From Meghimatium bilineatum (Eukaryota > Mollusca > Gastropoda > Stylommatophora > Philomycidae), in assembly GCA_034231615.1 (NCBI GenBank), contig CM067306.1, positions 48,516,594 through 48,580,593 of the forward strand: a stretch of DNA of 64,000 nt. Direction: 5' to 3'. Of the stretch, positions 3,470-58,235 are shown one piece after another (within the stretch, counting starts at the first letter, position 1; each line of letters begins with the position of its first letter). Position numbers and translations under genes: made by a program. A model generated the notes under the pieces. It saw only the letters and a list, made by a program, of their open reading frames with translations. It ran no database searches and had not been told where the DNA came from.

Positions 3470-3620
3470 ACTTACTTCTTCCACATCTTCGTTCTCAAAC
3501 TCCTGTAGATTATCAGAATGTAGTCCGGAGAACGTTCTCAAACTCCTGTAGACTATCAGAATGTAGTCCGGAGAACGGACTGTGTTGTATTATGGTTTAC
3601 AACTTAGATTCGATATCAAC
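3470..3620 (-). mobile_element. SINE-B copy with internal 43-bp duplication
   Basis: The reverse complement matches the SINE-B copies at 52,443-52,565 and 59,100-59,196: a 5' part with TCTGTAAACCATA-like sequence, a middle with CTCCGGACTACATTCTG, and a 3' part ending CAGGAGTTTGAGAACGAA then a GAAGA-type tail. The middle-to-3' part is present twice in tandem (period 43 bp, about 3,490-3,575). This is a two-copy tandem repeat made of SINE sequence. Confidence 0.7.
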
Positions 3621-5689: not shown

Positions 5690-7140
5690 CTTAGCTGCCG
5701 AACTGTCGTTTGATTAAGTGACGGTCAATGTTACATAATTTTTGATGTAACGGACGCTCTTAACTGTTTGTATCTAGTTTATTGCAACTTAATCTTAGTT
5801 TATTGTGTCTGATTTGATGTGATTCTCTTATTGCTGCCAACCTGCAGTTTGATGTAGGCTACGATCTTAGCTGCCAACCTGTAGTTTGATGTAGGCTACG
5901 ATCTTAGCTGCCAACCTGTAGTTTGATGTAGGCTACGGTCTTAGCTGCCAACCTGCAGTTTGATGTAAGCTACGGTCTTTATGCCAACATGCAGTTTGAT
6001 GTAAGCTACGGTCTTAGCTGCCAACCTGCAGTTTGATGTAAGGTACGGTCCTAGCTGCCAACCTGCAGTTTGATGTAGGATACGGTCTTAGCTGCAAACC
6101 TGCAGTTTGATGTAAGGTACGGTCTTAGCTGCCAACCTGCAGTTTGATGTAAGCTACGGTCTTAGCTGCAAACCTGCAGTGTGATGTAGGATACGGTCTT
6201 AGCTACAAACCTGCAGTTTGATGTAAGCTACGGTCTTATCTGCCAACCTGCAGTTTGATGTAGGATACGGTCTTAGCTGCAAACCTGCAGTTTGATGTAA
6301 GCTACGGTCTTAGCTGCAAACCTGCAGTTTGATGTAAGCTACGGTCTTAGCTGCCAACATGCAGTTTGATGTAGGATACGGTCTTAGCTACTAACCTGCA
6401 GTTTGATGTAAGTGACGATCGTAGCTACTAACCCGCAATGATTGTAGGAGTGACTGTCGTAGCTGCTTACCTGCAGTAAAAGTGTTGATGTTAGCTGATA
6501 ATCAAAAGTTTGATGTAGTAGTGACGTTCTTAGCTGATAATCTGCAGTTTGATGCAAGAGTGTTGATCTTAGCTGATAATAAAAAGTTTGATATACGAGT
6601 GACGTTCTTAGCTGATAATCTGCAATTTCATATAAGAGTGTTGATGATAATCTGCAGTTTAATGTAACGGACGATTTTAGCTGCTAACCTGCAACTTGAT
6701 GTAAGCGACGAGCTTAACTAACTTCTAATATGCAGTTTGATGTAAGAGTGACGATTTTAGCTGACATCCTGTAGTTTGATGTAAATGACAAACTTAGCTG
6801 CTAACCTGCAGTTTGATGTAAGCGACGAGATTAACTAACTTCTAATATGCAGTTTGATGTAAGAGTGACGATTTTAGCTGACAACCTGTAGATTAATGTA
6901 AATGACGAACTTAGCTGCTAACCTGCAGTTTGATGTAAGTGACGAATCTAACTTCTAATACGCAGTTTGATGTAAGTAGCGAACTTAAGTTCTAATATGC
7001 AGTTTGATGTAAGTGACGAACTTAACTAACTTATAATCCGTAATTTCATGTATGTGACGAACTTAACTTCTAATATGCAGTTTGGTGTAAGTGACGAACC
7101 TAACTTCTAATACGCAGTTTGATGTAAGTGACGAACTTAC
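5690..7140. repeat. 37-bp minisatellite, about 34 copies
   Basis: Unit core AACCTGCAGTTTGATGTAAG followed by CTACGGTCTTAGCTGCC. The centre (5,830-6,400) is homogeneous. The left edge (from 5,690) and right half (6,400-7,140) are degenerate, with sub-blocks such as AACTTCTAATATGCAGTTTG alternating with AGCTGACAACCTG. Edge decay around a homogeneous core is expected of unequal exchange. Confidence 0.93.
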
Positions 7141-25815: not shown

Positions 25816-26700
25816 TTAGATTCATATATCGCCACCGTTTTTCTTGGGCACTGCCAAATTGAGTATTTTTCGTGTGGCATGAAGGTCAAGTAACTTTTTC
25901 ATAGACCCCACTCCCCCCCCCCCACCTCTATAATTTAAGAACTGTTTTACTCTGCACTTGTTTATCAACCTGACGGTGTTCAAAAGTATGGTTTCGCTTC
26001 CTAATTTGATTCGATGACACTATTGACGTTAGTGACGGTTGTTGTGTAAGACTTATTTCCCTTCCTATCTTAATTTTATCATCTGATACCCATGTTATTG
26101 CATGTAATAACAGTCTAGCACCACTCACAGAATGTATGTATTAACATAGCCGCCATAAACTCAACTGGTTTTTTTTTTTTTAAATATTATTGCTAGAATT
26201 CATCATCATCACACCTCATAGTCATTCGGGTGAATCGATACTACGCATACCAATGTGACCGTCTATGCCATTACTGTTTACTTTCTGTTATATGTTTTAA
26301 TTGTTTCAATTGTTGTCTTGATAAAGCTCTTTTGGTCGAAACGTCGAAGCGTCTGTGACGGCAAAGGTACCGAGTTCGATCCTCACCACAGGCAATTGTG
26401 CATCCGGACCGTTCAGAAAGCAATGGCAACCTACTGAACGTATTTATATTGCCTAGAAAATCACCACAGCCAACAAATGCTGTGTAGATAGCTACGTCCT
26501 GGATAGGATATGCTACTCTCTCTAAAGAATAACTTCATTTGGAAAAAAAAATATTTGATTTTAAGGAACTGACTAATAGCTAATCTCGGTATCAAGCAAG
26601 GTTATCAGATAGTCGGAAGTTATTGGAGGGGGGGGGGTTTAAGCGTTAAGTAAAATATTATCACTGTAATGGTCAGGATCCAAATATTGTTAGTAAAGTA
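25816..26700. other. spacer with C-run and tRNA-like/hammerhead-like sequence
   Basis: A C-run lies near 25,911-25,923 and a G-run near 26,626-26,638. At 26,315-26,346 the plus strand reads TTGATAAAGC, TTTTGGTC then GAAACGTCG, a member of the dispersed family-F motif. It is followed by GCGTCTGTGACGG...GAGTTCGATCC, a tRNA-like B box. The same GTCTGTGACGG...GGTTCGA string occurs at 33.6 kb, so this is a tRNA-like SINE. Confidence 0.5.
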
Positions 26701-26714
26701 TATGTTATTTTCTG

Positions 26715-28775
26715 AGCCGACAGTGTCAAGCCGAGCATCCTCATATGAATATTTTTTTAGAGAAGGAAAATGTTCTGGCAACTTTTATAGACTTGAGAAA
26801 GGCCTTTGATAAAGTGTGGAAATATGTAGTCCACTTCAAGCAACTCCAAAACAAAATTGACGGAAGAATGTTCAGCTGGATAAAAGATTTCCTCTGCTTC
26901 CGCACTACAAGAGAAAAAGTAGATGGAAAATTAAGCAAACGTGTTACTCTCCAACAAGAAGTACCTAAAGGAAGAGTGATCTCTCCTACCATCTTCCTAG
27001 TATTCATCAGTGATATGGAAGAGAAACTGTCACATCATATTTCAAAGGCCCTTCATGCAGATGACTTTGTTGCATGGAGTGTAACAGGCAACCTATCCAC
27101 TGCGAAAAACAGAATGCAGATCGCACTTGACACCCTAAGTGAATGGGCATTTGACTGGTAAGTCCAGGTCAACCTCTCCAAAACTGTGACAACCATCTTC
27201 TCACTTTCAAATCACCAAGAAAAATCAAATCTACAAATAAATGGAAGTGAGCACATGTGGAGAACCCTACATATCTAGGGATCACACTAGACAAGCGACT
27301 CACCTAGAAACCACATCTAATAACCACTGAGCAAAAAAGCAACCAAGAAACTATCTTTGATGAAGAAACTTGCAGACTCAAGCTGGGGAGCAAATGGAAG
27401 TATTCTCCGAAATGTCTACATGGGTACAGTCAGACCTGTAGTAGAATATGGAATGATAGTTTGGGCATCAGCATCAAAAACAAATACTGATCGCCTATCT
27501 AAAGTACAAAATTCAGGACTTTGACTTATCTCAGGAGGGATGACAACCACTCCAATCCATGCGTGTTAAAACATTTAAACATCCGCCTACTAGATGACAG
27601 AAGAGAAGAAAGAGTACATGTGCAAAGGGAAAAAAATTAAGTTCATGCCAAACCATCCAATGCATGCGCACATTTCTAGATCAACCACAAGTAGGCTGGA
27701 TAGAACCAGCTTATGTCACATCTCCAACCACCTCCATCAACAACATAACGATATCCTTACAAACCGACCATATGAAATTGACAGTTAACAGATTTTAAAG
27801 AGACAGACAAGTCTCCAAAACGTCTCCATAATAACACAGGTTCCTGGAATAATTAATAAGAAATACCAGATTCCACCTCAACTAAAAGCATTGACACTAG
27901 AGATGATAGAAATAAGATACAGACCCAATGAATGGACACATGTCTACACAGATGGATCGGCAGAGGGAGCAGTAAGGAATGAAGGAGGTGTAATTTTTAT
28001 AAGACTCAGACGGAAAACAATGTCAAAAGCTTCTTCAACCTGGAAATACTCCTCTAACTTTAGAGCAGAAGCAGTTGCACTTTATTAAGCACTGAAAGCC
28101 TTCACCGAACCAGGACTGCCACGAACAAAGAAGATAGCCATATTCACTGATTGCAAATCCCTACTGGAATCAATCCAGAGCAATAGAAGTGAAAGCCTTC
28201 GACACAACATCAATCATGAGTTAAGACACATCCACAAATCATCAGCCATTGCCCTTCAATGGATACCATCACACCGTGGAATCACGGGGCATGAGAAAGC
28301 GGATGCCCTGTCAAAAAGCACAGGAAGTGAAATGGAGCAAAAACGACACCAACTGTTCTACGGAGAAGCAAAAACAATAATCCAGAACACATACACAACA
28401 AAGTGGATGAAACAAATGAAATTGAAAGACAAACATTATGCAATACATCTCCTTCAAAGATATCAACAGACCACAATATTTCGCCTCAGAACAGGCCACT
28501 GCAGACTATTGGGTAACATTTTCCGATTGAGGATCTCATACACAGATGAATGTCCATGTGGATCCGGAACCGAGACTCCGGAACACATACTTCAGGACTG
28601 CCCAACATACAAAGAGCAGAGACAGCAGACCTGGCTAGAGGATACAGACTTGAGGTAAAAGCTATGGGGCAGCCGCTCTGACCTGGAGAAGACCGTGGAT
28701 TTCGCCCTGACGACAGGCTTGAAAGTATAACATGACCACAGATGCTGAACGCAGAAGAAGAAGAATATTATTTCT
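26715..28775 (+). mobile_element. 5'-truncated LINE: RT + RNase H + Cys motif
   Basis: The best preserved transposon here. From 26,745 the plus strand encodes an RT palm: FIDLRKAFDKVWK (motif A), then VPKGRVISPTIFLVFISD (motif B) and KALHADDFVAW (motif C, HADD in place of YADD). After frame breaks, an RNase H domain at 27.9-28.32 kb keeps all four acidic residues: YTDGSAEG, FRAEAVALY, IFTDCKSLLES, SHRGITGHEKADAL. The C-terminus has TIFRLRTGHCRL and a CPCGSGTETPEHILQDCP Cys motif. The 3' end is GATGCTGAACGCAGAAGAAG. Apurinic endonuclease and ORF1 are missing. It suits the RNase H-bearing I/Jockey-like LINE groups; the clade is inferred. Several stops and frameshifts make it inactive. Confidence 0.93.
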
Positions 28776-44405: not shown

Positions 44406-44685
44406 CAATTTATCATCATAGTTACACACGAAACCGCACGAACTATATATTTTTAGGTAACCTTTCCCCCCCCCCCTTCCCTTAAAGAAAATGTATCTAA
44501 TATTTGTCACCTGCAACTGGAAGGGGCCGAAAATGGAAATTAGATTTGGTGACACTGTGATTTACTATGTATTAAGATGTATAATAATGTAATAAGAGCC
44601 GGTGAATGTGACTGTGGGGGTGGTGACTCTCATGCCAATCAGTGCCCCAGAAGCAATGGTCAAGTTGGATGTCACAGGTCGAAAT
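44406..44685. other. spacer with C-run
   Basis: C-run near 44,466-44,477. Nothing else recognised. Confidence 0.4.
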
Positions 44686-44689
44686 ACGT

Positions 44690-44765
44690 AAATATCGCTG
44701 CTAACCTGTAAACTATGGCAACATGTTTCATTCCCTGGACTACATTCTGTTAATCAGACTAACAT
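44690..44765 (+). mobile_element. SINE-B fragment
   Basis: AATATCGCTGCTAACCTGTA then AACTATGGCAACATG and CCTGGACTACATTCTGTTAA match the 52.44 kb SINE-B copy. The GAGTTTGAGAA end and tail are missing. Confidence 0.6.
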
Positions 44766-44769
44766 CATG

Positions 44770-45145
44770 ATGAATGGACATAGCTTGAGGTGGTGAATAC
44801 CTTCAAGTACCTCGGATCCAGCTTGAGGAGGTGAATACCTTCAAGTACCTCGGATCCAGCTTGAGGTGGTGAATACCTTCAAGTACCTCGGATCCAGCTT
44901 GAGGAGGTGAATACCTTCAAGTACCTCGGATCCAGCTTGAGGAGGTGAATACCTTCAAGTACCTCGGATCCAGCATATGCAGCGACGGAAAATGCAAAGT
45001 AGAGATAAGGCTGGAGATGGCTTTAGCGGTCTTGTATAGTTTGAATCACAGCTAGCGGTGATTTGGAAATGCAACTTCATTGTTGGAGTGAATCAAACTG
45101 TACAAGTCGCTGGTGCTTTCTGTTGTGATGTATGGTTGTACAAGT
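44770..45145 (+). mobile_element. LINE RT fragment with an internal amplified block
   Basis: The plus strand encodes RT thumb residues: EVVNTFKYLGSS, then ICSDGKCKVEIRLEMALA, and after a frameshift LYKSLVLSVVMYGCTS. In intact relatives these occur once and in this order. Here the codons for the VNTFKYLGS part are repeated five times (44,786-44,972). The fragment is fused at about 45,145 to a minus-strand RNase H fragment. Confidence 0.82.
44786..44972 (+). repeat. 38-bp minisatellite made of RT codons
   Basis: Five copies, four nearly perfect, of AGCTTGAGGAGGTGAATACC then TTCAAGTACCTCGGATCC. The unit encodes part of the RT thumb motif (VNTFKYLGSS). At 38 bp the frame shifts with each copy, so this is a DNA-level expansion, not a protein repeat. 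Confidence 0.93.
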
Positions 45146-45325
45146 ATTGACTCAAGCTCATTCATCTCAAAATACTTTGATCGTGAATTTTCACGAAGAG
45201 CAATGAGTATGTCTGCTCGGTCCAAAAGCTGACCGTTTGTTGTGGTGGTGAGGCTAGCTAATTGATCGGCTCGTTCGTTTCCCTCCACGCCCGCGTGACC
45301 GGGAAGCATCACTACGAAAACTCCC
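45145..45325 (-). mobile_element. RNase H fragment of a LINE
   Basis: Minus strand reads VMLPGHAGVEGNERADQLAS, the last RNase H motif with its aspartate, then TNGQLLDRADILIALREN. The same family as 39.4 and 17.3 kb. It is 5'- and 3'-truncated and abuts a plus-strand RT fragment. Confidence 0.85.
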
Positions 45326-49907: not shown

Positions 49908-50179
49908 TGGAGCCGCGTTAGCGCAGTGGTTAGCGCACTGGCTTCGCATATGAGTGGTCCTGGGTTCATTCCCCAGCTGAGGCGGAAATGTTTTCAATTC
50001 GCAACGGCTCCCAGGTCGACCCAGCCTTAAATGGGTACCGGATTAATCCGGGAAGTAAAGACTGCGAGGGAGAGGAGATGGCTACCGCCCTCATTTGCAG
50101 AGCCTGTGAAATGTGAGATCGCTAACATCTCACACCCCTACAGCATTAATAAATGCTATGGGTTACTTTACTTTTTTTT
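49908..50179 (+). mobile_element. tRNA-derived SINE, full-length, 9-bp TSD
   Basis: The reference copy. Starts TGGAGCCGCGTTAGCGCAGT, with A-box-like TTAGCGCAGTGGTTAGCG and B-box-like GGGTTCATTCC; body with CAGGTCGACCCAGCC and GGCTACCGCCCTCATTTGCA; tail GGGTTACTTTACTTTTTTTT. Perfect ACACCTATA duplication at 49,899-49,907 and 50,180-50,188. Polymerase III would transcribe such an element, and a partner LINE would move it. Confidence 0.95.
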
Positions 50180-52670: not shown

Positions 52671-52915
52671 GAGTGAGGGGAGAAATCATATTCTCTCTGA
52701 AAAGATCACATATTCAATATTTGACTGATATTTTTTTAATACACTTGGCTGTTAGTTTGATCTGCGTACTGTGCACCTATAGGAATGGTATGTGTACTAC
52801 GATGTCGGTTTATAATTAAAAAGAATGAATACTGTTACATACACATACATGATGATAGTGTGTGAGGTCATGACCTCCTCGGGCACATACGTGATAAATG
52901 GCATTGTGTACTCAC

Positions 52916-53136
52916 TGTTTCTAAGTATCCTTGATATGGACCTCTTTGCAGTTGTACAATTCCATCGTCTGTTTCTAAACTGGTACTTGCATTCCATTAA
53001 AGCAATTTTGGCGCCTTTCGCAACTTCAGCCACAATTTCTGGCTCACGTTTGCAGATCGTCTTCTGAATTCCTGCTAATCGTTTAGTCTTCTTGCAGATA
53101 CTGTTAGAGTCCATGAGAAGAGGGCTGCCCACCGCC
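52916..53136 (-). CDS. Wnt6: Wnt-family exon (best fit Wnt6), internal exon 2
   Basis: An internal exon of a secreted Wnt ligand, which binds Frizzled/LRP receptors. It spans 221 bp (minus). The acceptor is TTCACAG before 53,136 and the donor is ACA then GTGAGTAC at 52,915. The first base completes a codon (TG-G, Trp) and 73 codons follow, ending with one base, so phases are 2 in and 1 out, the Wnt exon pattern. The protein starts AVGSPLLMDS, then NSICKKTKRLAGIQ, EIVAEVAKGAKIALMECKYQ and FRNRRWNC. Four cysteines fit Wnt disulfides. The AVGSPLxMDxxSICxK...RLAGxQ block is typical of Wnt6, less so of other paralogues. No stop or frameshift. The lipidated serine loop and other domains are in exons not found here. 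Confidence 0.88.
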
Positions 53137-53550
53137 CTGTGAAATTTGTAAGAGAATGGTTAGTTATAACATGTATAAATGATGTCAATATTTTTTAGTT
53201 TTTTTTCCATTACTTGTCCTGAATGAAACAATTATATTTGTTACCTCCCATTTTAGTTTTAGATACAGTTGAGATATGATTATATATATATTTCAAGGCA
53301 TATGTATCTGTACATCTCCTTTATGTGCATGTTACTTTACAAATCTATTGTAAAAGCAAGGGGGATAACCCCCAAAGATAAGCTTTGAGGACAAGTTCTG
53401 CATTATGGTTTACGTCGATCTAATGTAGTTATGATCAATAGAACAATGAACTCTGTTACAGAGCTATAGAATAAATGAAATGTTTAGAGACAGAACTAGA
53501 GATATCGATACAAAAGTGAGCGTAAGAAGAATAATCTCATCATAAATACA
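53137..53550. other. flanking intron sequence
   Basis: Upstream of the Wnt exon on the minus strand (presumed intron 1). AT-rich, with the pyrimidine-rich acceptor tract next to the exon. No other features. Confidence 0.5.
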
Positions 53551-57924: not shown

Positions 57925-58235
57925 GTCCGGGCATTTTTGGTTCCTACTCAAACACCCACTAGATTTCTCTTGTATCAAGACAATGTTTCCACTAGATTTC
58001 TCTTGTATCAAGACAATGTTCCCACTAGATCTCTCTTGTATCAAGACAATGTTCCCACTAGATTTCTCTTGTATCAAGAGAACAATGGTTCCACTAGATT
58101 TCTGTTGTATCAAGACAATGGTCCTACTAAATCTCGTATCAAGAAAATGGTCATTCTAGATTTCCAGCAGGATGTGGCTTATGGAACGGAAATGCGTTTG
58201 TATCTCTTGTTTTATTTGTGACAATTTTTTGACAC
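57925..58235 (-). mobile_element. SINE-A with expanded internal segment
   Basis: The SINE-A tail and head are poor (GACACCCGACATCGG at the head end, AACGGAAATGCG next), but the middle part that reads, on the plus strand, CCACTAGATTTCTCTTGTAT then CAAGACAATG is present about six times (57,955-58,140). In intact SINE-A it occurs once. Confidence 0.75.
57955..58140. repeat. ~32-bp minisatellite derived from SINE-A
   Basis: Units CACTAGATTTCTCTTGTATC then AAGACAATGTTC, with a few length variants (AAGAGAACAATGG). Five to six copies. The unit matches SINE-A around its ATTGTCCTGCTACAAGAGAA part (complement). Confidence 0.88.

Follow-up and report, generated by a model that had tools for sequence, protein, structure and literature searches.

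A 38-bp minisatellite probably grown in place within a truncated LINE of Meghimatium bilineatum

The DNA analyzed here, referred to below as the window, is a stretch of 64,000 nucleotides of the Meghimatium bilineatum genome (contig CM067306.1), and it contains a minisatellite with a 38-bp unit that is part of a reverse transcriptase gene. Our main reading, to which we assign a probability of about 0.88, is that this single-locus minisatellite grew in place in a dead, truncated LINE, starting with a duplication between two AGC triplets and proceeding by gains of whole units. A chance match of 2-3 bases at the ends of a 38-base piece apparently set off the expansion. The array is ordinary in kind, TE-derived minisatellites being already well known and the present one being a further case; no paper on its locus was found in a literature search. 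What makes it useful is the family of its host, as a large number of sister copies without the expansion define the ancestral state almost base by base, and therefore the breakpoints of the first duplication can be read. With TE copies serving as built-in controls, the start of minisatellites becomes testable genome-wide.

Structure of the array and its former coding sequence

The array is located at positions 44782-44974 of the plus strand, where Tandem Repeats Finder reports period 38, 5.08 (5.1) copies, length 193 bp, 98% matches and score 372. The original prediction, made from the sequence alone, had identified this array correctly but bounded it slightly short, at 44786-44972. The length equals 5 x 38 + 3, that is, five whole units followed by a 3-bp residual, AGC, the number of units being as read in one assembly. 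Each of the five units contains GTGAATACCTTCAAGTACCTCGGATCC, which encodes VNTFKYLGS, and so the predicted five-fold spelling of this peptide is borne out. The sole difference among the units is one site, GAGG[T/A]GG, with the variants following in the order T-A-T-A-A. Since five units have a single variable site, a chance origin of the repeat is ruled out.

As 38 is not a multiple of three (38 mod 3 = 2), the frame shifts from unit to unit, VNTFKYLGS appearing in frames 1, 3, 2, 1 and 3 of the plus strand in successive units, and nothing continuous is coded. Moreover, stops break every frame of the array. A coding repeat, or a peptide repeat maintained by selection, is ruled out by this period-38 frame shift together with the interrupting stops; the array is formerly coding DNA and no protein repeat, and we see no coding role for it. 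The peptide ICSDGKCKVEI, expected after the array, is indeed found in frame behind unit 5. The sequence EVVNTFKYLGSS, which had been placed before the array, is actually unit 1 itself.

The host LINE and its single-copy relatives

LINE DNA lies on both sides of the array. The left flank, directly 5' of unit 1, is about 30 bp long (44752-44781, plus strand), and the same LINE resumes past the array at 44972-45140 on the plus strand, with positions 44972-44974 common to the flank and the array residual. The LINE fragment starts at approximately 44752 and ends at approximately 45140, and it comprises about 240 bp once the array is discounted. The host element is a decayed mosaic fragment. The predicted LINE host stands, with one LINE family on both flanks, the details to be mended being the shortness of the left flank and the decay of the fragment.

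The assignment to non-LTR retrotransposons (LINEs) comes from a reverse transcriptase domain in L008, which matches the RVT_1 profile (PF00078, E 1.8e-12) over positions 120-204 of 205 and whose best solved relative is the LINE-1 ORF2 protein (E 0.0017). No Pfam match was found for a second stretch, taken from L005 and beginning at the unit. The pentapeptide FKYLG is located at the end of the RVT_1 domain match, and it probably corresponds to motif E (reverse transcriptase region 7), where the palm borders on the thumb. The repeated peptide had been described as a motif of the reverse transcriptase thumb; the reverse transcriptase part of this description agrees with the RVT_1 match in L008, while that match, at the very end of which the motif sits, does not bear out the thumb part.

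On its left the LINE fragment adjoins a dispersed repeat (44639-44755, plus strand), different from the LINE and SINE-like by size, which is 75-83% identical to 39 other places among the matches listed. At the join, a few bases (approximately AATC) could belong to the one element or the other. A mobile SINE-LINE mosaic is ruled out, as the exact junction occurs once genome-wide; the junction search with three mismatches gave two matches and one for the reversed control pattern, judged by the printed letters and count. The right boundary of the LINE fragment is formed by a second repeat fragment (45145-45303, minus strand), 84% identical to positions 2443-2601 of L004; its minus strand shows weak similarity to RNase H (E 0.0037), which falls below the Pfam cut-off.

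Several other features were observed in the window. Further retroelement fragments are found at 26697-28655 on the plus strand, with matches to reverse transcriptase (E 4.4e-13) and, just under the Pfam cut-off, to RNase H. A tRNA-like match at 49912-49984 (32 bits, the Rfam gathering score being 29) may represent the head of a SINE or else a tRNA gene, and an exon of a Wnt gene, as befits animal DNA, is located at 52800-53159 on the minus strand (Pfam wnt, E 3.3e-14).

Relatives of the host were sought in the genome of 1.61 Gb (32 contigs). The best 40 of 2,847 candidate places were taken, one of them being the window itself, and 27 of the other 39 were examined, namely L002-L008 together with 20 (L044-L063) of the 32 still left, picked as high-scoring matches. 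The unit is present once in all 27 copies, in agreement with the prediction that the motif would be single in related LINEs. When the array was collapsed by the removal of four units, seven loci aligned across it, extending 20 bases or more to either side: L002, L003, L004, L006, L007, L008 and, at 77%, L025, an unselected copy from a random sample. The spanning LINE loci are six of the seven then in the database; L005 is without the left flank, its left side being different DNA. Alignment to related LINE copies, the check named beforehand, has thus shown both flanks to match one LINE family with the unit present once.

The usual 24-base core of the family has 1,004 + 1,032 = 2,036 exact matches in the genome, which were taken as LINE copies, few of them having been examined directly. 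A search of the whole genome for this core duplicated at periods 22-52 gave no occurrences. The spaced-duplicate search with the variant core of the array gave four places genome-wide, all of them within this array, and the junction pattern, with at most three mismatches, gave four matches in the array and one on contig 18, the latter (L068) being a LINE that has the unit once and has suffered a deletion. These duplicate and junction patterns would miss arrays that have diverged or that occupy another part of the LINE.

The unit is therefore TE sequence flanked by TE sequence on both sides, and the array is at a single locus so far as the patterns searched can show. The absence of the array from the family consensus, as predicted, follows from duplicated-unit patterns matching this locus alone; an internal tandem repeat of the consensus is seen in none of the 27 copies, and none of the pattern matches elsewhere is tandem. 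As the unit is single in 27 of 27 copies and the patterns match here alone, the single-locus, in-place expansion of LINE DNA is confirmed, and the proposal of the original prediction that transposon DNA had expanded in place is supported by the same two lines of evidence.

Start of the expansion and its alternatives

In this LINE copy, AGC is found at both ends of the unit, exactly 38 bp apart, in the context CATA-AGC-TTGAGG ... GGATCC-AGC-ATATGC, where the last A of CATA was restored from the relatives. The second AGC may have become joined to the first through a slip in replication or through repair primed by microhomology, and 38 bp would thereby have been duplicated in tandem. The long homology resulting from this first duplication would then have let the array gain whole units, either through slippage or through unequal exchange. 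Judging from the order of the units, one of these gains was probably a two-unit step, turning T-A into T-A-T-A, with one further A added afterwards. Whole-unit gains following the AGC joining would keep the 3-base residual.

The 3-bp AGC match is short and could be a coincidence, 7% of simulated blunt duplications giving at least 3 bp. On the right, only a minority of relatives have AGC: it is present in three of 27 copies, with AGT in most of them and AAC in L003, which is the copy nearest to this one over the left side; the left AGC is absent from L006 and L007. For these reasons, the ancestral match was maybe 2 bp or less. The model of Haber and Louis calls for direct repeats of 5 bp or more where the ancestral unit begins and ends, and these are not observed, the match being 3 bp here and fewer in most relatives. 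Slippage, polymerase-theta joining and fork switching could each be considered as the path, and the sequence does not tell them apart.

The flanks of the array are of unequal similarity to the relatives. Over the left flank and unit 1, all 68 of 68 aligned bases are identical to L003, with one 1-base deletion at the edge of the array that is shared by none of the 27 copies. Over aligned bases, with gaps left out of the count, the right flank shows 86-91% identity to the 27 copies; relative to them it lacks six bases at one place and has an insertion of 11 bases at another, and its match to L003 is 138/154. This difference between the two sides is consistent with an alternative that we consider unlikely, in which one replication event with template switching produced the array, the rearrangement and an inverted repeat 60-130 bp downstream. 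The first arm of this inverted repeat (45031-45049, plus strand; 17 of 19 positions match) overlaps the insertion (45035-45045), which is absent from 27 of 27 LINE copies, and the second arm (45088-45106, plus strand) is in the LINE-aligned stretch and has a 2-base deletion compared with most relatives. Moreover, the strand at 44982-45140 folds better than 200 of 200 shuffles (z -3.79). Taken with the insertion, the near-palindrome 45031-45106 is suggestive, but no more than that, of a template switch to a nearby strand. However, when pieces of 150 bp were drawn at random from the window, two of 40 contained an equally good inverted match, the repeat search with seed 9 gave no inverted pair, the perfect match to L003 is the best among 27, and nothing connects the array and the inverted repeat in time.

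An insertion of a ready-made block into the LINE, as a DNA circle or a mobile minisatellite, is very improbable: arrays are indeed frequent in the genome (13.0% of the 200 kb sampled), but the unit here is LINE sequence in the very place, phase and orientation that it has in the LINE, which continues to the left and right of the array, and the junction pattern gave no second copy of the array. There is equally little reason to regard the array as a trait of a LINE subfamily, carried in with the insertion, for although some TE families have internal tandem repeats in their consensus, such as LTR12 and L1PA (PMC3389668), the single-copy state of all examined relatives and the genome-wide junction and spaced-duplicate searches, matching this locus alone, speak against it.

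Other arrays of the genome and known systems

The in-place growth from a short match can be compared with other arrays of the same genome. The window contains 47 merged arrays with periods of at least 10, covering 24.8% of its length, against 13.0% of the 200 kb sampled at 20 other places. In the test of residuals, performed on the window and the 200-kb sample, arrays with at least 95% match and a period of at least 18 were considered, and arrays within 20 bp of locus ends were dropped. A residual of at most 7 bp is found in 15 of 24 such near-perfect arrays, while 5.5 are expected for random ends, and this count was reached by none of 20,000 simulations. The mean residual in these 15 arrays is 3.3 bp, compared with 0.77 bp in simulated blunt duplications. 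At the threshold of 92% match or more, the residual is short in 26 of 49 arrays (11.5 expected), with a mean of 2.8 bp. Arrays without a short residual make up nine of 24 at the stricter threshold and 23 of 49 at the weaker one. These statistics, which leave the enzyme path aside, support a microhomology-primed birth for many arrays. A broader claim, that most arrays in this minisatellite-rich genome, TE-derived or not, start from a tandem duplication for which 2-7 bp of microhomology served as the primer, with the excess bases as a lasting scar, is tentative and rather doubtful.

Collapsing was applied to 125 arrays, and the subsequent search gave nine with spanning matches, five of which are matches of an array to a neighboring array or have identity below 70%. 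The cases relied on are the array at 44782 of the window, the one at 6742 of L031 and, less firmly, the one at 3490 of the window (73-81%). The L031 array (6742-6912, 56 bp x 3.05) lies within a dispersed repeat and has GAA at both unit ends, as does its single-copy relative. The array at 3490-3577 of the window (43 bp x 2, residual CG) has as its unit a piece of a dispersed SINE-like repeat, and its relative L039 has CG at one end only. The array extending from 57955 to 58129 or 58164 of the window also has a SINE-like unit, and no spanning match was found on collapsing it. A separate observation concerns L043, where a 21 bp x 2 array (1050-1091) in a dispersed repeat matches L013 and L037 at 80-87%; as the alignments exceed the length of the collapsed query, these relatives may carry both units, and the duplication may be common to the family.

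Units of 106 arrays were also searched directly. The lax setting (75% identity) is uninformative, 62 of 106 arrays having matches, against 44 of 106 for shuffled units; the strict setting (E <= 1e-6) gives seven of 106 arrays, against none in each of five shuffles; the latter is a biased rate, the database including loci that had been fetched for holding the LINE or the SINE-like repeat.

In the human genome, according to the survey by Ahmed and Liang 2012 (PMC3389668), 7,276 TE-derived arrays constitute 23% of minisatellites and satellites, 601 of these arrays being L1-associated. Flanking direct repeats of 5-20 bp are given there for 300 arrays and an incomplete terminal unit for 159, and the start of the remaining arrays is termed unexplained. 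The present array resembles the human ones, as far as that text describes them, in being at a single locus, in having a part of a TE as its unit and in local growth after insertion. It differs from them in the animal host and in the end match of at most 3 bp, which is below the 5-20 bp counted in that survey. If the microhomology reading is true, thousands of TE copies supply the unduplicated ancestor and the birth step can be read directly, and the counting of matches shorter than 5 bp could explain a part of the arrays that the survey left unexplained.

The model of minisatellite origin proposed by Haber and Louis in 1998, as described in PMC6947457 and PMC3389668, involves slippage at short repeats of 5-10 bp; unlike the repeats of that model in PMC6947457, the match here is of three bases. 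Repair routes are treated in PMC9659126. Minisatellites are also known in Alu, SINE B1 and MaLR elements, according to the review PMC6947457, and the present case is like them in being a minisatellite within a retroelement copy. Unlike those cases, where the hosts are SINEs or LTR elements, the host here is the reverse transcriptase-coding part of a LINE.
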